Shown here in pieces: positions 40,862 through 53,470 of a stretch of 64,000 nt of DNA. The notes under the pieces were generated by a model. It was not told the origin of the DNA. It made no database searches and worked only from the letters and a program-made list of their open reading frames with translations. Position 1 is the stretch's first letter, and each line of letters opens with the position of its first letter. A program made the position numbers and the translations under genes. The DNA comes from Muribaculaceae bacterium (GTDB taxonomy: Bacteria; Bacteroidota; Bacteroidia; Bacteroidales; Muribaculaceae): the NCBI GenBank assembly GCA_017626045.1, contig JAGAJP010000040.1:1-64000 (forward strand), given 5' to 3'.

Positions 40862-40920
40862 TTGTTTTTTTGTTTTAAATTGATTCAGATGTACCGAACA
40901 ATATTTAATACTCTCGCGTC

Positions 40921-40954
40921 AAACGCAGACCGTACCTGGGCACGACCTGCGTTT
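40921..40954 (-). other. 5' leader hairpin of the rpsH unit
   Basis: AAACGCAG (40921-40928) and CTGCGTTT (40947-40954) form an 8-bp stem that would lie at or near the very 5' end of the rpsH transcript. It could stabilise the message or bind a ribosomal protein. Confidence 0.5.
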
Positions 40955-40962
40955 TAACCTCG

Positions 40963-40993
40963 CAAAATTACTAAAAATTTGCTGATTATGCAA
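40963..40993 (-). promoter_or_regulatory. Promoter for rpsH and the downstream spc/alpha genes
   Basis: Minus strand TTG (40993-40991), exactly 20 bp, TAATTTTG (40970-40963) is a near-consensus Bacteroidales promoter. It lies between the synthetase cassette and rpsH, so the downstream ribosomal genes do not depend on transcription through the cassette. Confidence 0.88.
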
Positions 40994-41071
40994 GAATTGT
41001 TCATCCGAGGAGAGAATGGTTAGACCTATTTAACTTTATTTAACTATTTTTAAGAGTCTATTATTCCCCTT

Positions 41072-41572
41072 TCAGTGCTCTCCGGGGGATGAGACGGAGA
41101 TGGAGAAGACATAGCGGAGGGTCTGACCGGTCTGAGTGAACGGGTCGTCTGACGGCCATTGACGGGGGTCGTCGGGAATATTGCCACTTCGCTTGACGGC
41201 AGACTCCTTGCGGGTCCAGAGAGCGGTGAAAGTCTCACCCGGAGCGGTGGACGACTCTACTGCACGCGACTCTTCCGGGGAGAGCGCGACTGCAAGCAAC
41301 TCTGCAAAAGGGGGACTCTGGATGTCCTCGATATCGCAACCCACAGGTGCAGAGTCAACTGCCGCCATCACCGCCGACTCACAATGGGAAAGGGAAAAGT
41401 GTATGTCGTGACGCGACGGGAAAAACGGTTTTCCGAAGTCATCAACCTGAATGGCAGGTAAGACCGTGATGCCGCAATACTGCGCAAGGAGAGCGCCGAG
41501 CGTTCTCCTTGCCAAAATACTCTTCACGTCCGGCGAACAGCCGGGAGGAATATCGTCGATTCTGTAAAACAT
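41072..41572 (-). CDS. Sfp-type 4'-phosphopantetheinyl transferase
   Basis: 166 residues from the ATG at 41572, two bases past the exporter stop; the longer frame would overlap the exporter. Motifs: GKPFF, HFSLSHCESAVMAAV, the Mg-binding VGCDIE, and FTALWTRKESAVKRSG (the W-KEA-K motif). It loads phosphopantetheine onto carrier domains and surely serves the T domains of the neighbouring synthetase. It is shorter than classical Sfp (about 220 residues), closer to compact family members. Last gene of the cassette. Confidence 0.88.
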   Translation of the reverse strand: MFYRIDDIPPGCSPDVKSILARRTLGALLAQYCGITVLPAIQVDDFGKPFFPSRHDIHFSLSHCESAVMAAVDSAPVGCDIEDIQSPPFAELLAVALSPEESRAVESSTAPGETFTALWTRKESAVKRSGNIPDDPRQWPSDDPFTQTGQTLRYVFSISVSSPGEH

Positions 41573-41574
41573 AA

Positions 41575-43326
41575 TTACCGCTCCCCCTCGGAAGCATCGC
41601 TCTGCCATTTCATGGTGAGGAGATTCTGTCCGAACAGATATTCGTAGTTCATATCGTCGCAAGTCTTCTTCATCAGAAGGAGACCGATGCCGGTGCCGGG
41701 ATCCTGCTCTATGGGATTGAAGGGCGCGCCCTCGTCTCTGACGAGCACCGAATAACCGGAACCGGACTTGACAATCCGCATATCGATCATCGAGCGTCGC
41801 TTTCCGGCAAGTGCATGACGGATGACATTACCGAGACTCTCCTCGCAGGCGAGCACAATCTTGTTGCGCAGTTCGTGGGAGACACCGCGAAGCTTCAGCC
41901 AGTCTTCCGCCTCTACAAGCACCTCCATCTGGTCTTCAAGCGAAGGATGCAGCGAGACATCGAGCATCATTTCAGGATTCTCTGAAGGGATGAGCAGGAA
42001 AGGCATGTGTTCACCCTTTCGGGTGAGCGCAAAGGGAAGAAGGATGAGTACCACGCACATCTGGCCGCATGCGAAGCCCCACCACGGATTCAGCCATTCC
42101 CTTCCGGAAACCGAGAGCGCGGAGAAAAGCCAGAAAAACACCATCGGCAAGAGCGGCTGTCCGAGGGAGATGACGAGAGCCAGCGACTTATGGCCATAGA
42201 TCTGATATACCGGGATAAGCACATACACCACGCACTGCAGTATGATGTTTGCGGCAAAAGCCGGAAGAGCCAAATGAATCATCGCCACGGAACCGGGCTC
42301 GACAATGCCGAAAAACGACACGATCCAACCCGGGAAAAGGATAAGGATGAGGGCGAGAGCCGAGAGGCCGACCGCAAGGAAGGAATAAGCCTTGCCAAGC
42401 ACGAGCGCCACTCCCCTATTGTCGCCGGACCCCTTCAATATCGCCGCAACAGGCTGGAATGACTCGAGGGTGCCGGTGAGGATGATCATCGAGAACTGCA
42501 GTAGATACATACAGATGGACAGGGTAACGATGCCGTCCGAGCCGAGATAGCGGATGGCGACGGTGTTGTTGCCGAGCAGCTGCACGGCTATGAGCATGGT
42601 GGCGATACCGAACGGGAGTCCCATAGCGGCTATCTTGCCAAGGTTTCGCAGCGAGCGGGGCATCATGAACGAGAGGGAGCCTTTCTTCAGGAAATGCGGA
42701 GACATCACGGAGAGAGCAGCCACATAACTGAGCACAGTGGCGAAAGCCGCGCCTGTCATACCCCAGTCGCACCAAACGATGAACGCATAGTCGAGACACA
42801 GGTTTACAAGAGTGCATACAGCGACGGCGGCGGTAACACGCTTCGGTTCTCCGTCAAGAGTCACGAACATCTGCGTCACAGCCATCACCATATAGACAGG
42901 AGATGCCGGCACTATAACCCTAAGATATGCGGCGGCATAAGGCTGGAGTGCGGGATCGGGACACAAAAGTGCCACCAGACTGTCGAGAAACATGAATCCG
43001 AAGACACCGATAAGGATGCCGACACCGGCAATGACGGACAGTACAATAGAGAAGAGGCCCGAAGCCTCTTCCCTTTTGTGATTGCCCATAGCCACTCCCG
43101 CGAGCATCGATCCTCCCGTGCCTATCAGGATGCAGATCGCAAACAGCGTCTGCATCACCGGCGACGCTATGTTGATGGCGCTCATAGCCGTCTCGTTGAT
43201 GAAATGGCTGAGCATTATGCCGTCGACAAGCGTACCCACCTGCGAAGCCGCAGCGGTCAGCACCGAGGCGAGGAGGAAGCCGCGAAACGCCTTACCTACA
43301 AGATAAGAAGAGCGTGTCGATGTCAT
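41575..43326 (-). CDS. MATE-family exporter fused to an RsbW-like kinase (HATPase) domain
   Basis: 583 residues. Residues about 1-445 are a 12-helix MATE transporter (LVDGIMLSHFINETAMSAINIASPV; ILIGTGGSMLAGVAMG; second half VVYVLIPVYQIYG). Residues about 455-580 are a GHKL ATPase of the anti-sigma kinase type, with N-box (IVLACEESLGNVIRHA), G1 (RDEGAPFNP) and G2 (GTGIGLLLMKKTCD) boxes intact. The fusion is real by frame: no stop or start separates the parts. MATE proteins expel small molecules using H+ or Na+. Here the attached kinase probably phosphorylates the STAS protein of the same operon or is held by it. ATG overlaps the synthetase stop (ATGA). Confidence 0.88.
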   Translation of the reverse strand: MTSTRSSYLVGKAFRGFLLASVLTAAASQVGTLVDGIMLSHFINETAMSAINIASPVMQTLFAICILIGTGGSMLAGVAMGNHKREEASGLFSIVLSVIAGVGILIGVFGFMFLDSLVALLCPDPALQPYAAAYLRVIVPASPVYMVMAVTQMFVTLDGEPKRVTAAVAVCTLVNLCLDYAFIVWCDWGMTGAAFATVLSYVAALSVMSPHFLKKGSLSFMMPRSLRNLGKIAAMGLPFGIATMLIAVQLLGNNTVAIRYLGSDGIVTLSICMYLLQFSMIILTGTLESFQPVAAILKGSGDNRGVALVLGKAYSFLAVGLSALALILILFPGWIVSFFGIVEPGSVAMIHLALPAFAANIILQCVVYVLIPVYQIYGHKSLALVISLGQPLLPMVFFWLFSALSVSGREWLNPWWGFACGQMCVVLILLPFALTRKGEHMPFLLIPSENPEMMLDVSLHPSLEDQMEVLVEAEDWLKLRGVSHELRNKIVLACEESLGNVIRHALAGKRRSMIDMRIVKSGSGYSVLVRDEGAPFNPIEQDPGTGIGLLLMKKTCDDMNYEYLFGQNLLTMKWQSDASEGER

Positions 43327-46300
43327 ATATCAAAGAAGTTTAGTGACTTGATCGCCTTGATAAAGCGGCTCACATACTCATGCGAAGTCGGATTCCAGCG
43401 GAACCCGATACGATATAGAATCTGGCTGGTGAAGTCAGACTCATATCGGATGAAGGTGGTCTGTGAAGACTGGTCCGAATCATAGGCAAGGAGTGGCTGG
43501 AGGGCATTGACCTTCTCCGGCACATCCATTGCCTCGCGCTCCGCATCCATGAACTCTTCATTCTCAACAGCCTTGACAGGGCATCCCGCGCCGTTGAGGA
43601 TATAGAGCACGTCGCCGAGCGGCAGGCGGTGGTTGTTGCAGGGATGGAACACCACCATCTCCTTAGGCGTCGAGGCAAGGAGGAGAATAGCCGCGCACAC
43701 CTCGTCAATCGGGGAGAACTCGCATGGAGCATCGAGCACGGCATAGGGAGCGCATCCAAGCGCCACGTATGCCTTCAGACGACCCATAAACGCGTTGCTG
43801 CTGAAATTAATCTGGAACTCGCCGTCGGAAGCGCGCGCCGAAAGGTTGCCCACGCGCATGATCTTCGCGCTGAGCCCGCGGTCGCGCACTGCGGTAAGGA
43901 TTAGCTCCTCAGCCTTGTACTTGGAGCTCACATACTGGTTGGCGAGGCTCTGTCCGAAATCGAACATGTGCTCCGAGAGCAGAATCTCCGGGTCCGGATA
44001 TCCGTTGACGCTCTCGCCGGCGATGCTCACGGTGGACACATGCACCAGACGGGCGTTCTTCTTCATACAGAAATCAATCAGGTTTCTCACACTCTCCACG
44101 TTGACAAGCTCTATATCGTTGCCGGCGGAGAAATGCTTCACGTTTGCGGCGCAGTTCACCACTGTATCCACGTCGATAGCCGCAGCCACCTCCTCGGGGA
44201 GCGGCGTCGTCACATCGTTTTCTACGATAGAGATTCTTCCGCTTTCGAATGCCTCCTCGAACGAGTCGTCGAAATAATAGAAGAGAAGCGTGCGGAGCCT
44301 GCTTTCCGGGGAGATGTCACCTTTCCGGCGCAGGAGACATACGATCTTGCCGTCATGCTCCGTGAGCAGATGGTGTAGCATGTGTATGCCCATGAAACCG
44401 GTGGCTCCGGTGAGCAACACGTCGCCGAGTTCCTGACGCTCTCCAGTGAGATATGCGTCGATGGAGTTGCGTGCGAGCACATCCTCGAATTCCGACTCGC
44501 GGTGATCGCCGGAAGTCAGCGAGACGTCGGAAGGCGTCACTGCGGCGGCAGTGTGTTTCTTGCCCTCTATCAGTTCCGCGAGCGCACGTGGGGTACGAGC
44601 CTCAAACACGTTCTTATATGTCACGCTATATCCTGACAGCGAAATGGCAGCCACCACCTTGATGGCGCTGATGGAAGTGCCTCCGATGGAGAAGAAATCG
44701 TCGTTGGCGCCAATCCGGTCGTTGGCAAGGACAGATGAGAAGGCATCCGCGATGATGCACTCGAGCTTTCCTTCCGGCTGCACATATTCAGCACCTCCGG
44801 CAATCTCCGGAACAGGAAGAGCCTTGCGGTTGGTCTTGCCGTTGGGAGTCAGCGGCATCTCGTCGATCCTCATGAAGGTGTCCGGCACCATATATTCGGT
44901 GAGTCTTCCGGCAAGATGCTCTTTGAGCGCGTCATTGTCAATCTCGGCAGCCGAAGTGTAATAGAGGCAGAGGTGCTGGATCTTATTGACCTCGCACACG
45001 TTTGCCGCCACCTTTCCGATGCCGTCAAACTCGAGCGCCACGCTCTCGATCTCGCCGAGCTCGATACGCAGGCCGCGGAGTTTCACCTGATGGTCGATGC
45101 GGCCGAGAATCACGATATCTCCGTCGGGAGTCCAGCGGGCAAGGTCGCCGGTACGGTAAGCCTTCTCGCCCTGATATGTCACATAAGCCTCGGCGGTCTT
45201 CTCCGGGAGGTTGTTGTAACCCAGGCCGAGGCCTCTGCCGAAGATATACAGTTCGCCGACAGCGCCTACGGGCAGTTCCCCGCCCCAGGCGTCGACCACG
45301 CGCTGCGAATCGTTGTAGAACGGAGGACCGGCGATGACCGGGGTATATGGAGTCAGCTCGAAATGGTTGCTTCCGACGGTGGTTTCCGTAGGACCGTATT
45401 CATTTACAGTTCTGCCATGGAACCCGGCGTCATACAGTTTTGCGATAAGCGCGGTCTGGAAACCCTCGCCGCCTATATTCAGGTGAGTACATTCTGACAC
45501 CGCCTTTCTGAACTCAGGCAGGTCGAGCATTGCGTCCAGACGGCTCGGCGTGATGTCGAAAGCATCCACATTCTTGTCGAGCATCAGTTTGGCAAGCATG
45601 ATCACATCCTTGCACTCCTCCTCGTTGGCGAGCACCAATGTGTGGCCGCATGTCAGCGAAACACCGAGATTGTTGAGCGACGCGTCAAACGAGATAGTCA
45701 CCAGAAGCATCTCCACCTTCGTCTCGGGACGGTTTCTGAAATACTTGTCATAGTAGCCGTAGAGGTAGTTGGAGATCGCCCTCTGCGGAATCATCACACC
45801 CTTCGGGCGTCCGGTGGACCCCGAGGTATATATCATGTAAGCCACGTCTTCCGGACCTACCGGCACGTTCGGCCTCGAATCGTCTGTCTCCTCAAGTAGC
45901 GACTCGATATCCACGGCGTTCTCATAAAGATGCAGGCGGTCGGCGGTGGTGATGATGAACCGGGCCCCGCTGTCTTCAGTGATGAGGCGTATGCGCTCTG
46001 CGGGATAGTCGGGATCACACGGTATATATGCCGAGCCGGTCTTCATCGCGCCATAGATGGCAGAGATCAGGCTTGCTCTTCTCGGGAGAAGTATCACTAT
46101 CCTGTCGCCGTGGACCACGCCGCGCTTTATCAGCGCGTTGGCGATACGGTTACATTCGTTGTCAAACTCGCGGTAAGACAGTGTGCGGTCGCAAGCCACC
46201 ACTGCATCCACATCCGGAGTCTCGTCGGCTCGTTTCTCCATCTCGCCGTGCATCGATGTGTATGGCACATCACATTTCTTGCCGTTTCTGATGCGGCCGA

Positions 46301-49300
46301 GGATTTCAAGTGCGCGTGAATCGGTCATCACGCCGTCTGCCACTGTCTTTGCCGACACGAGGCTCAGCGACAGGCTCGACATCATCCTGAGGAGCACAGC
46401 CATGTCGTCGAGTCCGAAGCAGGATGTATCGTATTCCAGCACAAGTTCGAAATCATGGGCGGCGTCTTCATACACAAGGAGGGTGAGGGGAACCTTCGCG
46501 GTGTTGAGCGCCAGCGGAATCTCCTCCGCCGACAGAGCCCCCGAGCCCATCGACATATCGATTCCACCCTCGTAGACATACATTATCTCGGGATGTATTC
46601 CCTTGCGGTCCACCAGAGACGTAAACGGATAGAAGTCGTTGTCCTGAGTGGTCAGGAACTGCTTCTGAACGTCAGCTGCGAAATCGGCGGGCGACACCTC
46701 GCGCGGCTTCGCGCAACGCGACACCACCGGAAGAGTCTTCACGAACATACCGGTGGAGCCAAGCAGACGCACGTCGTTTCTGCCGTTGTTGACAGTAGTG
46801 ATCTGTATCGTCTCCTCCCTCACGAGTCTGTGGAGGAGCTGTAGGAACGCCGACAGAAGATAGTTGCTGACGGTAAGACCTCTCTCTGTGCAGAACCGTC
46901 TGATCTCAGCCGACTTCATACCCAGTCTGATGCGGCCCATGCCGCCGGCTATATCATTGTCGGGATGCGCGCTGCGCGGATAGGATGTGGACTCGGAGTC
47001 GCCGACAAGTGTGTCGAACCACTGCTCCGCCTTGTCGAAGGCGTCGCTTTCGAGAAGGTCTTTCTCATAGAGGGCGTGGTCGAGGGCGCTGTATTCCTCT
47101 TCCTCGAGCGCCTCGCCGGCGTAAGCCTTGCGTATTTCGTCCATCAGCAGCATCGCCGACATACCGTCGAAGATGATGTGGTGGCTGTCCATCAGCATAT
47201 ACACATTGTCGAGATACGTGAAGATCTCGCAACGGAAAAGCACGTCGTTATAAAGATGGAAAGGACGGATACGGCTTTGGAAGAAATCAGCGTCGGGCAT
47301 CCTGTCGAGCGCGGTGATCTCGATATGGAAATCCTCGGGTCCGTGAGGCTCCTGCATGACGTCGCCGTTTCGCCACACCATGCGGGTCATCATTCCGGGA
47401 TGCGCCTCGAGGGCTTTCAACACTGCATCGCGAAGTCGCTCGACGTCAGTGCCCGGAGCGAATCGGAACGCCTGCGGGATATTATACTGCAGGGCATCGC
47501 GGTTCATCTCCCAGTCGATATACACGCCCCGCTGATTCTCGGTGAGCGGATAGAACTTGCGCTTGGGAGCGCTCTTGCACTCCTTCGGGACGGTTTCGGA
47601 CTCTGCCTCGGCAATCTGAGTCGCCATGGCGCGGATGGTGGGCGAAGACATGATTCCCTTGGCTGAGAGCTTGACTCCTAGGCGCTTCGCCACGGCAGCC
47701 ACAAGGCGCATCGACATCAGCGACGTCAGGCCTGCCGAAAGGAGGTTGCTTGTGACGCCGAAGCTGTCGTGGCCGAGCACTTCCGCCGTTATGTCGAAGA
47801 GCGTCTGCTCCGTCTCCCCCTCGGGAGCCACTGTCTCCTCAAGTTTCTTCTCGGGTGTAGGAAGTCGCTTGCGGTCTACCTTGCCGTTGGGAGTCAGCGG
47901 CATCTCGTCGATCTTCATGATAAGTTCCGGCACCATGAACTCCGTCAGGTCTGAGCGCATGTATTCCTGAAGCTGCTCGGGGGTAAGGTCGCTCCCTTCG
48001 GCGGGAGTATAGTATCCGACGAGCATCTCGAGGTTGCCGATCTGCTTCACGGCAGCCACAAACGTCTTCACTCCGGGATGTCGGGAAGCCACGGCATCGA
48101 CCTCACCGAGCTCGATGCGGAGGCCGCGTAGTTTCACAAGTCCGTCTGAACGTCCGATAAATTCTATGTCGCCATTGGGCATGAAGCGCGCGTAGTCGCC
48201 GGTGCGGTAAGCCTTCACGCCGTCAATTTCTGTAAATTTCTCGGCCGTGAGTTCCGGACGGTGCAGATAGCCTCGTCCCACTCCGGCCCCGAGGATCACG
48301 AGCTCGCCGGGCAGTCCCTTCGGGATCACCCTGAGGTATCGGTCGAGGATACGGACATCATATCCCTTGATGGGGCGTCCGATGTCCTTGCCGTCGGTAG
48401 CGCCTTCCACCTTGAGCGCGGTGCATATGACAGAGCACTCCGTAGGGCCGTAAAGGTTGAAGAACTGGTAAGGGAGCGCCTTCAGCGGCGGAAGTTTCTC
48501 GCCGCCTCCGCAGAGCACCCGGAGCGACGAGAACTCGAAGAGCGTAGCCATCTGCCAAACGATCTGCGTAGTCATGAAGGTGACGGTGATCTTCTCGCGC
48601 TCCATGTATTCATACATGGCGGTAAGATCCATGCGGATCTCGCTGTCGAAGACATGCACGGTAGCGCCATTTGCGAGAGTCGGATAAAGGTCCATCATGT
48701 GAGCGTCGAAGCCGAAGTTGGCGTAAGCGCCGGTTCGGTCTTCGGAAGTCATGCCCACAAGATTGGTATAGGCCGCCACATAGTTGGCTATGTTATGCTG
48801 GTCAAGCACAACACCTTTCGGTTTTCCGGTAGAGCCGGAGGTATAGAGATAGACCATCGCCGAGTGGGGAGCCGGACCGTCGGCGATCGCGGCGGCAGGC
48901 TCCGGGAGGGTATCGATCACTGAGGCATCTATCACCTCGCCTTTAAAGGCGGGAACAATGGACTTTGCTAGGCCGTCGTCGGAAAGGACAATGCTCACGC
49001 CCGCGTCCTCGATCATGAACATCAGGCGCTCCTCGGGGAAATGGGGGTCGAGAGGCATGTAGGCGCCACCCGCCTTCATCACCGCGATGGGGAATATCGC
49101 CATCAGTTCGGACCTCTCTATCATGATGCCTACCACAGACTCGCGACGCACGTCGAATTTCTCGCGGAGAATGGCGGCAAGGCGGTCGGTGATGTCGTCA
49201 AGCTCGCGGTATGTGAGTTTCCTGTCGCGGTAGACCACGGCGGTATTTTCCGGCCACTGGGCTACAGCCTTGCGGAACATGCCGACGACAGTTGCGTCTT

Positions 49301-50636
49301 TTCCGGCTGAAGACTTGCCTCCTTCGGAAAGGAGGAGTGCCTCATGCGCCTGCGCCTCGTCGGCAAGGGCGAGCCTTGACACGGGGGTGTCGGCGGGAAG
49401 CGTCATGAACTGCCTGAGCACGGTCTCGAACACTGAGGCGAGCGTACGCATCAGCTCCTCGCTGAAGAGGTCGCTGCGGTATTCCACCTCAAGCACGGGA
49501 CGATTTCCGTAGAAGAACAGCTGTCCCGTGATCTTGGCTCCTGTGGCGAGCATGTCGAGATGAATCTCGTCGGGGCGCTCGCCGTTGATGTCGGGCATAT
49601 CGAGGAAACTTCCCTGGTATGAGAACATGAAATCGGAAGAGATTCCGAAATCGGCAGCCGCGTCCATGAAGGAATAGATGTCGAAGTCGCGGGCTGTCTT
49701 CATGTCCTTCTTGGTCTGCGCGAGCAGTGACTCCACGGTGGTGTCGCGGTCGGTCTTGACCCTGACGGGAAGAGTCTTCACCATCATGGCGAAAGTATTG
49801 TCGTAATCGTGGCCTTTTCTGCCGTGATATACAGTGGCGAGAACCACGTCCTCGCGGCGGTTGAGAAGCTGGCACACTATTCCCATTGCAGCTGTTGCGG
49901 GGACGCTCAAAGGCATTCCGGCAGTCTTGCAGTATGCGGCGTATTCCTCCTGGGTGAACGCGAGGTCCACCGCGACCTTATTGTAGGTCTCCCCGGCACC
50001 GGGTTTTTGCGACGCAACATCGGGAAGGATGTCGAATGTAGCGTCGGCTCCCTCGAGCATGGCGGAATAATGGTCGCGAGCCTCTTTCCATGCCTCGCCG
50101 GCGCGGTCTGCCTGCTCGCGCCTTGCCAGCTCATGGATCGACACTGTTTCCTCCGGAATGTCGATGCCTCTAAGGGCGGCGTCGAGGGCGCGGAGTGTCA
50201 CTTTCATGGACGAGCCGTCGAAGATGGTGTGATGGAAGTCCATGAAGAGATATGTGGATTTTTCAGTCTTGATTACCTTTACTCTCGCGAGGGGAGACGC
50301 GTCGGTGAAATCAAACGGAACCACCATTGACTGGGCGGACTGAAGGAGTGCGTCGTCTTCCATCTCCAGCATCTCCACCTGCACCGGCTCAGTCTGAGCG
50401 GGATCTTTCCAGAGGGGATTGCCCTCGGCGTCGAGGATGATTCGGGCCGAGATTCCGGGATATGCCTTAACCAGACTGCGCATAGCGTCGGCAAGGCGTT
50501 CGGGAGTCACGTTGTTGAAACGGAAGAGAAACGGAATGTGATACATCAGTTTCTCCGGATTCCTGACACTCTCGAGATAAAGTCCGAGCTGCGACTGGGT
50601 CAGCGGCAGGCCGGAATATACAGAGTCGTTTTCCAT
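43323..50636 (-). CDS. Two-module non-ribosomal peptide synthetase with terminal reductase
   Basis: 2437 residues. Order by eye: C1 (about 1-430, HHTIFDG at 135), A1 (450-930, YTSGSTGKPKG, YRTGD, NGKVDRK), T1 (940-1010, Ser972 in AGLTS), C2 (1025-1450, HHIIFDG at 1152), A2 (1465-1945, YTSGSTGRPKG, YGPTETT, NGKTNRK), T2 (1955-2025, Ser1988 in GGTS), reductase (2070-2437, GATGFMG, Tyr2235 and Lys2239 in YVSSK). All active-site motifs are intact. The first C domain suggests that the first residue is N-acylated or that a substrate is received. The NAD(P)H reductase would release the chain as an aldehyde or alcohol. Pocket residues by eye: A1 D-A-M-F-V-C-L-V-I (hydrophobic), A2 D-A-N-D-L-I-E-V-G (acidic pocket, perhaps a basic or polar residue); low confidence. 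Confidence 0.95.
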   Translation of the reverse strand: MENDSVYSGLPLTQSQLGLYLESVRNPEKLMYHIPFLFRFNNVTPERLADAMRSLVKAYPGISARIILDAEGNPLWKDPAQTEPVQVEMLEMEDDALLQSAQSMVVPFDFTDASPLARVKVIKTEKSTYLFMDFHHTIFDGSSMKVTLRALDAALRGIDIPEETVSIHELARREQADRAGEAWKEARDHYSAMLEGADATFDILPDVASQKPGAGETYNKVAVDLAFTQEEYAAYCKTAGMPLSVPATAAMGIVCQLLNRREDVVLATVYHGRKGHDYDNTFAMMVKTLPVRVKTDRDTTVESLLAQTKKDMKTARDFDIYSFMDAAADFGISSDFMFSYQGSFLDMPDINGERPDEIHLDMLATGAKITGQLFFYGNRPVLEVEYRSDLFSEELMRTLASVFETVLRQFMTLPADTPVSRLALADEAQAHEALLLSEGGKSSAGKDATVVGMFRKAVAQWPENTAVVYRDRKLTYRELDDITDRLAAILREKFDVRRESVVGIMIERSELMAIFPIAVMKAGGAYMPLDPHFPEERLMFMIEDAGVSIVLSDDGLAKSIVPAFKGEVIDASVIDTLPEPAAAIADGPAPHSAMVYLYTSGSTGKPKGVVLDQHNIANYVAAYTNLVGMTSEDRTGAYANFGFDAHMMDLYPTLANGATVHVFDSEIRMDLTAMYEYMEREKITVTFMTTQIVWQMATLFEFSSLRVLCGGGEKLPPLKALPYQFFNLYGPTECSVICTALKVEGATDGKDIGRPIKGYDVRILDRYLRVIPKGLPGELVILGAGVGRGYLHRPELTAEKFTEIDGVKAYRTGDYARFMPNGDIEFIGRSDGLVKLRGLRIELGEVDAVASRHPGVKTFVAAVKQIGNLEMLVGYYTPAEGSDLTPEQLQEYMRSDLTEFMVPELIMKIDEMPLTPNGKVDRKRLPTPEKKLEETVAPEGETEQTLFDITAEVLGHDSFGVTSNLLSAGLTSLMSMRLVAAVAKRLGVKLSAKGIMSSPTIRAMATQIAEAESETVPKECKSAPKRKFYPLTENQRGVYIDWEMNRDALQYNIPQAFRFAPGTDVERLRDAVLKALEAHPGMMTRMVWRNGDVMQEPHGPEDFHIEITALDRMPDADFFQSRIRPFHLYNDVLFRCEIFTYLDNVYMLMDSHHIIFDGMSAMLLMDEIRKAYAGEALEEEEYSALDHALYEKDLLESDAFDKAEQWFDTLVGDSESTSYPRSAHPDNDIAGGMGRIRLGMKSAEIRRFCTERGLTVSNYLLSAFLQLLHRLVREETIQITTVNNGRNDVRLLGSTGMFVKTLPVVSRCAKPREVSPADFAADVQKQFLTTQDNDFYPFTSLVDRKGIHPEIMYVYEGGIDMSMGSGALSAEEIPLALNTAKVPLTLLVYEDAAHDFELVLEYDTSCFGLDDMAVLLRMMSSLSLSLVSAKTVADGVMTDSRALEILGRIRNGKKCDVPYTSMHGEMEKRADETPDVDAVVACDRTLSYREFDNECNRIANALIKRGVVHGDRIVILLPRRASLISAIYGAMKTGSAYIPCDPDYPAERIRLITEDSGARFIITTADRLHLYENAVDIESLLEETDDSRPNVPVGPEDVAYMIYTSGSTGRPKGVMIPQRAISNYLYGYYDKYFRNRPETKVEMLLVTISFDASLNNLGVSLTCGHTLVLANEEECKDVIMLAKLMLDKNVDAFDITPSRLDAMLDLPEFRKAVSECTHLNIGGEGFQTALIAKLYDAGFHGRTVNEYGPTETTVGSNHFELTPYTPVIAGPPFYNDSQRVVDAWGGELPVGAVGELYIFGRGLGLGYNNLPEKTAEAYVTYQGEKAYRTGDLARWTPDGDIVILGRIDHQVKLRGLRIELGEIESVALEFDGIGKVAANVCEVNKIQHLCLYYTSAAEIDNDALKEHLAGRLTEYMVPDTFMRIDEMPLTPNGKTNRKALPVPEIAGGAEYVQPEGKLECIIADAFSSVLANDRIGANDDFFSIGGTSISAIKVVAAISLSGYSVTYKNVFEARTPRALAELIEGKKHTAAAVTPSDVSLTSGDHRESEFEDVLARNSIDAYLTGERQELGDVLLTGATGFMGIHMLHHLLTEHDGKIVCLLRRKGDISPESRLRTLLFYYFDDSFEEAFESGRISIVENDVTTPLPEEVAAAIDVDTVVNCAANVKHFSAGNDIELVNVESVRNLIDFCMKKNARLVHVSTVSIAGESVNGYPDPEILLSEHMFDFGQSLANQYVSSKYKAEELILTAVRDRGLSAKIMRVGNLSARASDGEFQINFSSNAFMGRLKAYVALGCAPYAVLDAPCEFSPIDEVCAAILLLASTPKEMVVFHPCNNHRLPLGDVLYILNGAGCPVKAVENEEFMDAEREAMDVPEKVNALQPLLAYDSDQSSQTTFIRYESDFTSQILYRIGFRWNPTSHEYVSRFIKAIKSLNFFDI

Positions 50637-50637
50637 A

Positions 50638-50937
50638 TCAGTCGAGATTGAAGAGTTTCGAGAAACCGGTCATGTCAAACACCGGACGCACGGCGGGTAT
50701 AACATTTACCACGCTAAGGTCTTTGCCGGAAGCCTTGACACCTTTAAGAAGCGTGATGAAAGACCGTAGTCCGGCACTGCTTATATATTCCATCTCCGCG
50801 CAGTCGAGCACCACGTCGCCGAGGTCGCCGCCGAGATTCTTCACTTGAGAGTCAAATTCCTGAGACGTCACCGTGTCGAGTCTTCCCTTGACTGCGATTC
50901 GGGTGCCGTTGTCGATTTTTTCGATGTCTAACGTCAT
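50638..50937 (-). CDS. STAS-domain protein (anti-sigma factor antagonist type)
   Basis: 99 residues, a single STAS domain of the SpoIIAA/RsbV type. The phosphorylation loop is MEYISSAGLRSF, with Ser54 in the place of the Ser phosphorylated by RsbW-type kinases. It starts 13 bp after the phosphatase stop and ends 1 bp before the synthetase start, so translation is coupled. Expected partners are the kinase domain of the exporter fusion and the SpoIIE phosphatase. In known systems the unphosphorylated form binds the kinase. Confidence 0.92.
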   Translation of the reverse strand: MTLDIEKIDNGTRIAVKGRLDTVTSQEFDSQVKNLGGDLGDVVLDCAEMEYISSAGLRSFITLLKGVKASGKDLSVVNVIPAVRPVFDMTGFSKLFNLD

Positions 50938-50950
50938 GATATTTACGATT

Positions 50951-53236
50951 TTATTTTTGTATTATGATTTTCAGAATGTTTCTGCCGTCGACTCGGGAGT
51001 ATTCCACCTTTTCTGATAGACGGCGGATCAGGAATATGCCGAGACCACCAACCTTGCGCTCCTCAAGCGGAAGGTCGGTGTCCACATCCGGGGCAGAGAC
51101 GAGGGGATTGAACTCCGGTCCGGAGTCCGAGACGGTCATTGCCTCGGTAGCGGCATCCGACGAGAGCCGGAACTCAATTCTTTCTTCCGGGTCGGCGGGC
51201 GTGGAATAGTTTATCACATTGCTTACCGCCTCCTCGGCTACGAGCATCACCTTGTTGAGCAGACCGTCGTCCCAGCCTTCCCTCTGAGCGGCAAGCTGGA
51301 TTCCCGATATGAGAGTTCCTATTTCTGCGCTGTCATATTTCAGATTCATGGAAACACCGGTGGCTGAGGAGGATATGCACAGCATTGTGATGTCGTCGGC
51401 ATATACGTTGTCGCAATATCTCTTGACTTCGTCGGCAAGAGACGCCACAGCCGTTGATGGCTCCGGCAGACGGTTCATAGTCTCCGATACCGTTTCGAGA
51501 AGTTTTTCCTGGCCGTAAAGCACTCCTTGCGGACTCTCTGCCTCCGACATGCCGTCGGTGTAGAGGAAGAGTGTGTCGCCGGGAGCGAAGGGGCAAGCCG
51601 TCTCGGAATAGGGCATGCCGGGCATCACGCCGGCGGGGAGGCCTGCCGGAAGGTCAAGATAACGGCATCCGTCGCCGGAGCAGACCACTGCGGGATTATG
51701 TCCGGCATTTGCCATGACCATAGTATTGGAGACAGCGTCGATATATCCCACCAGCATGGTGACAAACATATTGGTGGAGTTGTCGGCACACATATTGTCG
51801 TTGATGCGGGTGACGATGTCGGCGGGAGCCATCGCCTGCTGGGCGGCGAAATGGAAGAGGCTCTTGACATAGCTTGTCATGAGGGCGGCGGGAATACCCT
51901 TGCCGCTCACGTCGGCGATTATGAAGTATAGCCTGCCGGCGGACTCCACATAGTCGTACAGGTCGCCGCCGACCTCCATAGCCGACTCCTGATAGGCTGC
52001 GAGAGAGAGCAGCGTTCCTTCCCTTTTGAAGGACGCGTCGCCGGGAGGAAGCAGCGAGCGCTGGATGTCGCGGGCTATCCGGAGCTGTGTCTCCATGTGC
52101 TCTCGCGCTCTCGTGCTTTCCTCTATCTGCACGATATACCTGTTGATGGAGTCGCGCATGTCGGTCATGGCGCGGCTAAGGTTGTCAAGGTCGGAATATT
52201 CGGGAGCCGGAGGTATCGGAGTGTCGAAATCGCCGCTGCCTATTCTTGTGGCGGCATCCGTGAGTCCGTTGAGCGGGCGAAGCGCGCGCCGGAGCGTGGC
52301 ACGGAGCAGGAATATGAGAATCGCAAAACCGAGCACTAAGATGATGAGGAGGGGCAGACGGATTCGCGAGGTCACTTGCGTTACGGAAGTGAGGGGCGAG
52401 GCAGTGCAGAGCACCAGGTTTATGTTTTCAACAGGCGTGAAGGTGCAGATGAAGTCTCTGCCGAGAAATATGCTTGTCTCCCCCTCCTGCAGAGATTTCG
52501 AGATTGCCGGGAGGTTGAGTCTTTTGCTTTTGCCCCTGTCTTCCTCGCGATAAGGGCTCATGGGGTAGCCTTCAAGGAATTTACCCTGTTTTGTCAGGAT
52601 GAACGCATAACTCTCGGGATAAGGGATGAGGCGGTTGAGCTGCTCGTCGAGATAACTGACGGCGACATCGGCTGTTACCACACAGAAGATTTCACCTGCC
52701 TCATTCCTGACCGGGCAGGCGAAAGTTACCATCAGGCAGTCTCCAGCGCCTTCATCGAAATAAGGCTCGCTCCAGATGCCGGAGTTTGAATCGAGGGCGG
52801 CGGTGTACCACTGCTGGCGGGTGTATCTGTAGTCGGTGTCTCCGAGCTGCATGGTGTGGACGCCATCGCCTTCATGACGCATATATTCCATCCATTCCTT
52901 GCCTTGGGACATTCTTTCGGGCACCATCACGATGCCGCAGCCGGAGATAATCGAGTCACTGTCGACAAGAATGCCGAGAGACTCGGAAGCGCTGCTTTTG
53001 ATTTCCTCCGTGGTCTCCTTCTGAAGTTCCTTGACGGAACGCCTAACATTCTGCTCCACGGAATAGAGTCTTGTATCAATGGTGCCAACAAGTTCACTTT
53101 GGAGAAGTCGGGTAATATCCTCAGCCTGCCGCGACTCGTTTTTCACGGCATACAGTTCGACAATCACAGCAATTGCGATGAATATGCCGAAACTAACGAT
53201 TACTTCATATAGAGACAATTTATCCGACAGTTTCAT
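50951..53236 (-). CDS. Membrane sensor SpoIIE/PP2C phosphatase with C-terminal HATPase domain
   Basis: 761 residues. Membrane helix about 8-30; periplasmic Cache-like sensor about 35-285 (PYFDEGAGDCLMVTFACPVRNEAGEIF); second helix about 290-312; HAMP about 312-370; coiled linker; PP2C/SpoIIE domain about 390-615 with metal-binding motifs (EVGGDLYDY, IADVSGKGIPAAL, ANAGHNPAV, FLYTDGMSEAES); then an RsbW-like ATPase domain about 630-760 (LVAEEAVSNVINYS; SDSGPEFNP; GGLGIFLIRRL). It would remove phosphate from the STAS protein in response to an outside signal. Having both phosphatase and kinase-like domains in one chain is a notable layout. First gene of the cassette. Confidence 0.92.
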   Translation of the reverse strand: MKLSDKLSLYEVIVSFGIFIAIAVIVELYAVKNESRQAEDITRLLQSELVGTIDTRLYSVEQNVRRSVKELQKETTEEIKSSASESLGILVDSDSIISGCGIVMVPERMSQGKEWMEYMRHEGDGVHTMQLGDTDYRYTRQQWYTAALDSNSGIWSEPYFDEGAGDCLMVTFACPVRNEAGEIFCVVTADVAVSYLDEQLNRLIPYPESYAFILTKQGKFLEGYPMSPYREEDRGKSKRLNLPAISKSLQEGETSIFLGRDFICTFTPVENINLVLCTASPLTSVTQVTSRIRLPLLIILVLGFAILIFLLRATLRRALRPLNGLTDAATRIGSGDFDTPIPPAPEYSDLDNLSRAMTDMRDSINRYIVQIEESTRAREHMETQLRIARDIQRSLLPPGDASFKREGTLLSLAAYQESAMEVGGDLYDYVESAGRLYFIIADVSGKGIPAALMTSYVKSLFHFAAQQAMAPADIVTRINDNMCADNSTNMFVTMLVGYIDAVSNTMVMANAGHNPAVVCSGDGCRYLDLPAGLPAGVMPGMPYSETACPFAPGDTLFLYTDGMSEAESPQGVLYGQEKLLETVSETMNRLPEPSTAVASLADEVKRYCDNVYADDITMLCISSSATGVSMNLKYDSAEIGTLISGIQLAAQREGWDDGLLNKVMLVAEEAVSNVINYSTPADPEERIEFRLSSDAATEAMTVSDSGPEFNPLVSAPDVDTDLPLEERKVGGLGIFLIRRLSEKVEYSRVDGRNILKIIIQK

Positions 53237-53265
53237 AAAGCTAAATACAAATGTTAAGCATTCTG

Positions 53266-53273
53266 CAAATTTA
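53266..53273 (-). promoter_or_regulatory. Possible -7 element of the synthetase cassette
   Basis: Minus strand TAAATTTG (53273-53266) fits TAnnTTTG and lies 29 bp before the first ATG. The -33 region is weak (TTTAG about 22 bp upstream), so it may be a poor or regulated promoter. Confidence 0.5.
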
Positions 53274-53326
53274 GCAATAAAAATTCAAATTCCGCTAAAT
53301 TTCGGACAAAATTCTGCCTTCGACAG

Positions 53327-53398
53327 CTGAGATAGGAGAAATAAGAGCAATAGGAGCACTATGAGAAATAAGAGGATCGCTCATATTGCTCATGGGAG
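53327..53398 (-). repeat. Degenerate 9-bp tandem repeat between rpsN and the cassette
   Basis: On the minus strand, units such as TTTCTCATA, GTGCTCCTA, TTGCTCTTA, TTTCTCCTA follow each other with a 9-bp period, with more diverged units upstream. The tract lies between the rpsN terminator and the cassette promoter. A weaker similar purine-rich stretch lies at about 32560-32600 near cls. Confidence 0.6.
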
Positions 53399-53415
53399 TA
53401 ATGCCAATATATGAA

Positions 53416-53451
53416 AATCAGGATATAGCTTTTGCAAGCCATATCCTGATT
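53416..53451 (-). terminator. Terminator after rpsN
   Basis: AATCAGGATATAGCTT (53416-53431) and AAGCCATATCCTGATT (53436-53451) form a 16-bp stem with one mismatch and a 4-nt loop, followed by TTTTC on the minus strand. It lies 20 bp past rpsN and would end the S10 half of the ribosomal operon before the cassette. Confidence 0.85.
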
Positions 53452-53470
53452 AATTATTTATAATACTGTA

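Follow-up and report, generated by a model that had tools for sequence, protein, structure and literature searches.

The window analysed, a stretch of 64,000 nt from contig JAGAJP010000040.1 of a Muribaculaceae bacterium (genome assembly of 2.66 Mb in 70 contigs, 94% complete), contains a tightly packed operon on the minus strand. It runs from 53236 to 41072 and encodes, in this order, a sensor, a STAS protein, a non-ribosomal peptide synthetase (NRPS), a MATE exporter with a C-terminal HATPase domain and a phosphopantetheinyl transferase (PPTase). Both the sensor and the STAS open reading frames were found where the initial annotation had placed them, and the order of sensor, STAS, NRPS and HATPase-bearing exporter was as claimed there; its gene list had missed the downstream Sfp/AcpT-type PPTase (Pfam/NCBIfam; 41072..41572, minus strand). 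The NRPS gene starts 1 nt past the STAS stop, the MATE start and the NRPS stop overlap by 4 nt, and the likely ATG of the PPTase at 41572 lies 2 nt past the MATE stop, in an ORF that opens at TTG 41662. Junctions of this size make translational coupling along the NRPS operon likely.

The NRPS (43323..50636, minus strand) showed the domain order C-A-T-C-A-T-R in Pfam and NCBIfam searches, which is that of AusA-like, aureusimine-type dimodular synthetases with a terminal reductase. Its nearest NCBIfam model was AusA (NF047350), and the score of 1065 bits against an equivalog cut-off of 2500 points to an enzyme of AusA architecture that is not the aureusimine synthetase itself. The terminal reductase of such enzymes normally releases an aldehyde; AusA-type dipeptide aldehydes cyclise to pyrazinones, and peptide aldehydes and pyrazinones include known protease inhibitors. 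Manual inspection of the motifs for specificity codes gave DAMFLGLVI as the start of the code of the first A domain, which we take to be nearest to Leu-type codes, and no confident match for the second A domain; neither was counted as evidence.

The sensor (50951..53236, minus strand; 761 aa) was predicted by Pfam to comprise a transmembrane segment, a periplasmic dCache domain (MCP-like_PDC_1/dCache_1, residues 91-276), a second transmembrane segment, a HAMP domain (residues 315-365), a SpoIIE/PP2C domain (PF07228, residues 433-622, E 1.5e-49) and a HATPase_c_2 domain (residues 637-758, E 8.8e-23). The last of these is RsbW-like (50963..51328, minus strand; PF13581, 85.2 bits) and is the first candidate STAS kinase, with intact N, G1 and G2 boxes. 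All metal-site Asp motifs that characterise PP2C/SpoIIE phosphatases (GGD, DVSGKG, YTDG and ADDIT) are likewise intact. The best NCBIfam match of the whole protein was SiaA, at 74.5 bits far under the cut-off of 700. That the sensor might both add and remove the phosphate, as proposed in the initial annotation, is compatible with both domains residing on it, and the arrangement has a precedent in SypE/SypA (PMC12826045). The Cache pocket has mostly retained an aromatic pair, a later Tyr and the final Asp, and there is no Arg at the position aligned to R126 of PctA, the carboxylate-binding residue in the described amino-acid-sensor motif (PMC10104139). The missing Arg spoke against an amino-acid-sensing Cache domain, which we rejected, and as a lead only, the ligand may be a carboxylate-free amine, such as an amino aldehyde.

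The product of the second gene (50638..50937, minus strand; 99 aa) is a STAS-only protein of the anti-sigma-antagonist fold (PF01740, E 2.7e-14), which scored 62.1 bits with TIGR00377 (ant_ant_sig) at a cut-off of 53.45. Its predicted phosphorylation site, Ser54 (codon AGT, 50776..50778, minus strand), was aligned with the phospho-serine of SpoIIAA (Ser58 position) and was unchanged in 24/24 cluster STAS proteins, with the adjoining Ser53 replaced by Ala in 8/23.

The MATE exporter (41575..43326, minus strand; 583 aa) matched PF01554 with 75.4 bits (cut-off 24.9) and stayed under the TIGR00797 subfamily cut-off (108.5 versus 147.4 bits). Its C-terminal RsbW-like HATPase (41605..41928, minus strand; PF13581, 60 bits), covering residues 467-574 (Pfam HATPase_c_2, E 6.2e-15), is the second candidate STAS kinase and a candidate docking target. 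Residues E495/E496, N500, D531 and G533 of this domain were invariant among 11 homologues, the G2 region being loose in some relatives. The catalytic Glu, the Mg-binding Asn and the G1/G2 boxes of HATPase_c_2 serine kinases were found in both HATPases of the operon. Domain searches thereby upheld the initial count, by which a single STAS protein is served by one phosphatase and two kinase-like domains, and Pfam and NCBIfam confirmed a full partner-switching set adjoining the NRPS gene at a locus without a sigma factor.

An AlphaFold2 model of the MATE protein (pLDDT 82.4, pTM 0.76) matched MATE structures over residues 8-452 with a Z-score of about 36, and ClbM (4z3n) was among the fold matches, so that both domain and fold place it with the MATE transporters. 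Outside the MATE/flippase superfamily, the first fold match was a chain of the RsbV/RsbW complex of B. subtilis, 6m37_C (rmsd 2.5; TM-score 0.86 when normalised to the length of the target), whose length of 115 suggests RsbW rather than RsbV. The aligned-structure list of the whole model was filled by the MATE part, and no RsbW entry was among the matches listed. For the fusion of MATE and HATPase, no description was found in the open-access literature (open-licence papers, which is weak evidence) and no further case at E 1e-60 in a phylum-wide sample of 395 (at most three scored candidates per genome), and a plasmid search returned only partial matches, to ordinary MATE proteins.

Within the family, the A-T-R half of the NRPS was detected in 13/149 genomes (E <= 1e-100) and the STAS protein in 15/149. 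All 13 NRPS-bearing genomes carry the STAS gene (hypergeometric P = 6e-17), on the same stretch as the NRPS in 12/13 and on different contigs in G146. The search for the same gene order in other genomes, suggested at the outset, gave a divided answer, since the linkage is found again in further genera, spans at least three bacterial families and keeps its gene content, but the order is shuffled. The order sensor-STAS-NRPS-(MATE-HATPase)-PPTase is shared by the window, L049, L050, L051 and L034, the last being the one relative found by a scan of genome contigs. L052 has STAS-sensor-(MATE-HATPase)-NRPS; L080, L077-L079 and, from another family, L095 have (MATE-HATPase)-NRPS-sensor-STAS; L023 has sensor-STAS-OMP-NRPS-MATE, and L092, from a third family, has the same with PPTase at the end. 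The additional gene in the latter two, encoding an outer-membrane barrel (Alginate_exp-like, about 440 aa; L023:10028-11329, L024, L026, L027, L029, L030, L092), occurs in clusters whose MATE lacks the HATPase; in L026, it lies beside the STAS and sensor genes though the NRPS is on another contig.

Partial Mantel correlations with the ribosomal-protein distance removed were 0.81 for NRPS and STAS, 0.92 for sensor and STAS and 0.72 for NRPS and sensor (p <= 4e-4, 13 genomes). This agreement of distances beyond the species signal indicates that the cluster moves as a unit. The same follows from G189, whose ribosomal proteins are 87-90% identical to those of the window's genus, and whose NRPS shares 65% identity with its counterpart in G026, a member of another genus, and 37-39% with those of its own genus. 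A chance neighbourhood, in which the module would have been captured at the NRPS locus without function, might be entertained because sensor and STAS pairs alone are common in the order, where the STAS profile matched 90/393 Bacteroidales genomes (E <= 1e-18). The 13/13 co-occurrence and the partial Mantel correlations led us to reject this as very improbable, given also that gene content was kept while gene order was shuffled and that no cluster with such an NRPS but lacking the module was encountered. Domain scores far over curated cut-offs and intact active-site motifs, together with the recurrent linkage, likewise speak for more than chance.

The protein that bears the HATPase differs between clusters. 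Eleven clusters (the window, L034, G156, G204, G149, G184, G189, G190, G194, G026 and G514) have it on both the sensor and the MATE protein, and ten have it on the sensor only, with a MATE protein devoid of the domain in seven (G001, G017, G040, G079, G109, G122 and G604) and with no MATE gene seen in the fetched stretch in three (G049, G060 and G135); for G514, G604 and L034, the locus alone was read rather than the whole genome. In G101, the HATPase is on the MATE protein only, the sensor being a Cache-PP2C protein that ends there and is followed by a gene on the other strand, and the only HATPase_c_2 domain over the cut-off in that genome sits on the MATE protein. G101 thus encodes the predicted classical triad of phosphatase, STAS protein and kinase, with the kinase on the exporter. 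In G156, the G1 box of the sensor HATPase is broken by loss of its Asp and that of the MATE protein is intact. Every cluster keeps at least one predicted RsbW-like domain. Dependence on two kinases, as the two kinase-like domains of the initial annotation might imply, was rejected, because the HATPase of relatives may be confined to the sensor or to the MATE protein, besides occurring on both. The strongest argument for the MATE tail as a working partner of STAS is that it is the only copy in G101; gating via this domain cannot be universal, since the MATE proteins of seven clusters lack it.

An inventory of the window's genome revealed one SpoIIE-family phosphatase and two HATPase_c_2 domains over the cut-off, all of them in the NRPS operon. 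Two STAS matches were obtained, the operon protein, which is the only free-standing STAS gene of the genome, and a domain within a frame of 580 aa that lies at the right edge of the window. A single sigma-70 region-3 protein was found (RpoD-like, 286 aa; the ECF type lies outside this count), and the NRPS operon encodes no sigma factor. As no cognate sigma factor is encoded with the partner-switching set, we file it as a sigma-free relative rather than among the sigma-controlling Rsb systems. None of 21 searched relatives that carry the cluster or module yielded a stand-alone short RsbW over the cut-off; all HATPase hits over the cut-off were in long frames, the strong ones being sensors and MATE proteins.

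These data bear on the classical output, in which STAS and HATPase would control transcription via a remote sigma factor (ECF or primary) and the MATE HATPase would only tether anti-sigma activity. HATPase_c_2 and STAS proteins are the anti-sigma and anti-anti-sigma families, a set of such kind controls the housekeeping sigma66 in Chlamydia (PMC8256260), and in L127, a related STAS gene has an ECF sigma gene nearby. Against this, the operon is without a sigma factor, the genome has the one region-3 protein, neither the genome nor the 21 relatives have a soluble RsbW above the cut-off, and the only such kinase domain of G101 is part of a membrane transporter; we regard control through a remote sigma factor as unlikely. 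A distant sigma factor as the real target, named in the initial annotation as a refuting condition, is a less likely but possible reading, for instance with a factor of the ECF type.

Our preferred reading, to which we assign a probability of about 0.45, is a partner-switching circuit that works without a sigma factor and serves a single exported NRPS product, in which STAS would gate export. The parts, their intact motifs, the closed inventory of the genome and the co-inheritance with the NRPS are well supported by the sequences; gating rather than transcription as the output is what we infer from the MATE-only kinase of G101, the broken G1 box of the G156 sensor and the fold match of the MATE tail to RsbW, together with the precedent for non-sigma outputs (SiaC/SiaD, SypA). 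The initial annotation had spoken of a synthetase locus under such control; as the second HATPase belongs to the exporter, the exporter is a better candidate target than the synthetase itself. In a more specific form, which we put forward tentatively, the RsbW-like kinase of the MATE protein would be the docking target of STAS, providing sigma-free gating of peptide-aldehyde export, possibly with feedback of the product through the Cache domain. The periplasmic Cache domain would bind a ligand, possibly the exported peptide aldehyde, the cyclised pyrazinone or another amine, and binding would alter the activity of the sensor PP2C domain. The latter would strip Ser54 of STAS of its phosphate, which the RsbW-like HATPases of the sensor and the MATE protein would restore. 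Unphosphorylated STAS would gate export by docking on the MATE protein's HATPase, located at its cytoplasmic end, and phosphorylation would release STAS, so that production and export would be matched after translation and not via a sigma factor. In clusters with a HATPase-less MATE, the sensor HATPase would be the kinase, and STAS might act directly on the exporter or the synthetase.

The HATPase-less clusters are accounted for by an action of STAS on the synthetase or PPTase, which it would activate allosterically as SiaC does SiaD, or on the MATE body, with the HATPases serving only as kinases. The strong co-evolution of STAS and NRPS (partial r 0.81), the activation of the enzyme SiaD by SiaC (PMC8457831) and the presence of STAS-sensor modules also with LuxE/LuxC-type clusters argue in the same direction. 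Such a target leaves both the MATE-HATPase fusion in many clusters and the MATE-only state of G101 unexplained, and we consider it doubtful. The MATE HATPase might also be a transport-reporting kinase, whereby the substrate load would set STAS phosphorylation as feedback to the sensor, which would make the exporter an input and not the output. This reading agrees with the same parts and motifs, and the sensor is present in every fully read cluster, with its HATPase intact in most; this arrangement is inseparable from gating by sequence. We know of no precedent for a MATE protein signalling transport in such a manner, and we judge it improbable.

Among known systems, SypE-SypA of Vibrio fischeri is similar in that one protein with an RsbW-like kinase and a PP2C domain sets STAS phosphorylation, with no sigma factor known and a post-transcriptional output (PMC12826045, PMC8256260). 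SypE is a soluble response regulator with a REC domain, whereas the sensor of the window is a transmembrane dCache-HAMP protein; the window further has a second kinase domain on the exporter, and its cluster makes a non-ribosomal peptide. SiaABCD of Pseudomonas aeruginosa shares the line from a membrane PP2C sensor phosphatase via a phospho-switch protein to an enzyme (PMC8457831). It differs in that SiaC, which is phosphorylated on threonine (PMC7647112), activates a diguanylate cyclase and the kinase SiaB is a separate protein. With RsbU-RsbV-RsbW and SpoIIE-SpoIIAA-SpoIIAB, the operon has in common the three domain families, the phospho-serine site and the fold of the MATE tail (6m37_C), yet it is without a cognate sigma factor and its kinase is fused to the sensor and the transporter. 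For an NRPS product, the functional precedent that comes closest is TciR of the TciK-TciR pair in Vogesella indigofera, where an RsbW-like HATPase protein is needed for indigoidine, likewise in a Gram-negative bacterium; TciR is a REC-RsbW response regulator without PP2C, the Vogesella genome is without an RsbV homologue, and the organism is not a member of Bacteroidales (PMC12826045).

The AusA/AusB pathway has the C-A-T-C-A-T-R NRPS and the PPTase in common with the operon, and ClbM-type MATE exporters serve other NRPS products; unlike the window, these clusters have a MATE without HATPase, and to our knowledge, neither kind contains partner-switching genes. In agreement with the initial annotation, no synthetase locus under such control was found described in the open-access literature (open-licence papers; weak evidence). 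The known role of RsbW-like kinases is that of anti-sigma factors, and the sigma-free examples (SypA, TciR) are mostly without a known target; the occurrence of the kinase on the sensor, the exporter or both in relatives forms a natural series that points to the transporter as a concrete one. If our reading is true, direct post-translational gating of a natural-product exporter would join the known controls of biosynthetic clusters, and the switch by which gut-type Bacteroidales probably control their reductase-terminated NRPS clusters would be named.

Sensor and STAS pairs also occur apart from the NRPS, sometimes with a stand-alone HATPase, which implies that the module has other outputs. 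No NRPS of the window type was present in 20 further regions read from the 90-genome list. STAS lies beside a CitMHS/TrkA_C transporter in L127 and L135 and beside RelA/SpoT-like and Na/Pi-cotransporter-like genes in L139 and L141, and the HATPase is a separate small gene in L135, L138, L139, L141 and L144. Accordingly, it is not the module itself that is new, but its tie to one NRPS type in the family and the MATE-HATPase fusion. A second type of biosynthetic locus, a LuxE/LuxC-AMP-binding/GNAT/MFS cluster, was observed beside sensor and STAS genes in L020:7249-19042 and L142:144-10185. In L145:5680-7197 (minus strand), a HATPase_c_2 domain joined to a weak GNAT domain adjoins a sensor and a STAS gene and is possibly a second case of a predicted RsbW-like domain fused to an effector. 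The modules of L137-L139, L141 and L129 adjoin RelA/SpoT-like or HD-type ppGpp-hydrolase-like genes (partly by eye) as well as transporters, and L126:11448-12641 (minus strand) encodes a fusion of STAS with an APH/choline-kinase-like domain, beside a sensor and a second STAS gene.

The NRPS operon sits between rpsN and rpsH (window 40862-53470) and thereby splits the S10/spc ribosomal operon. These two genes were adjacent, 68-249 nt apart, in 14/14 family relatives read across the junction, and the insertion at this place was seen in no relative, G156, G204 and G149 carrying the operon elsewhere. The G+C content of the operon is 56%, that of its surroundings 51-53%. An assembly chimera is unlikely, because both junctions lie between rpsN and rpsH and relatives have the same operon elsewhere.

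A hairpin followed by T-rich DNA after rpsN (53416..53451, minus strand), recognised by eye and absent from the list of a consensus scanner, is possibly a terminator shielding the inserted operon. Upstream of rpsH, a Bacteroidales-type promoter-like site, TTG-N20-TAnnTTTG, was found at 40963..40993 (minus strand); the pattern is weak, occurring 9 times in the window on both strands, and the consensus scan gave no more sites than in shuffled DNA. Together, the hairpin and the promoter-like site may shield the ribosomal genes, for which the support is weak. Directly upstream of rpsH, at 40875-40908 (minus strand), lies a further hairpin of the form TTAAATATTGTTCGG-loop-CTGAATCAATTTAA, which is present at the same place in L062-L075. 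It had no Rfam match; 12 pairs were kept in 15/15 genomes, four with changes on both sides, and the loop was variable in length. It looks like an undescribed leader of a ribosomal protein, perhaps S8.
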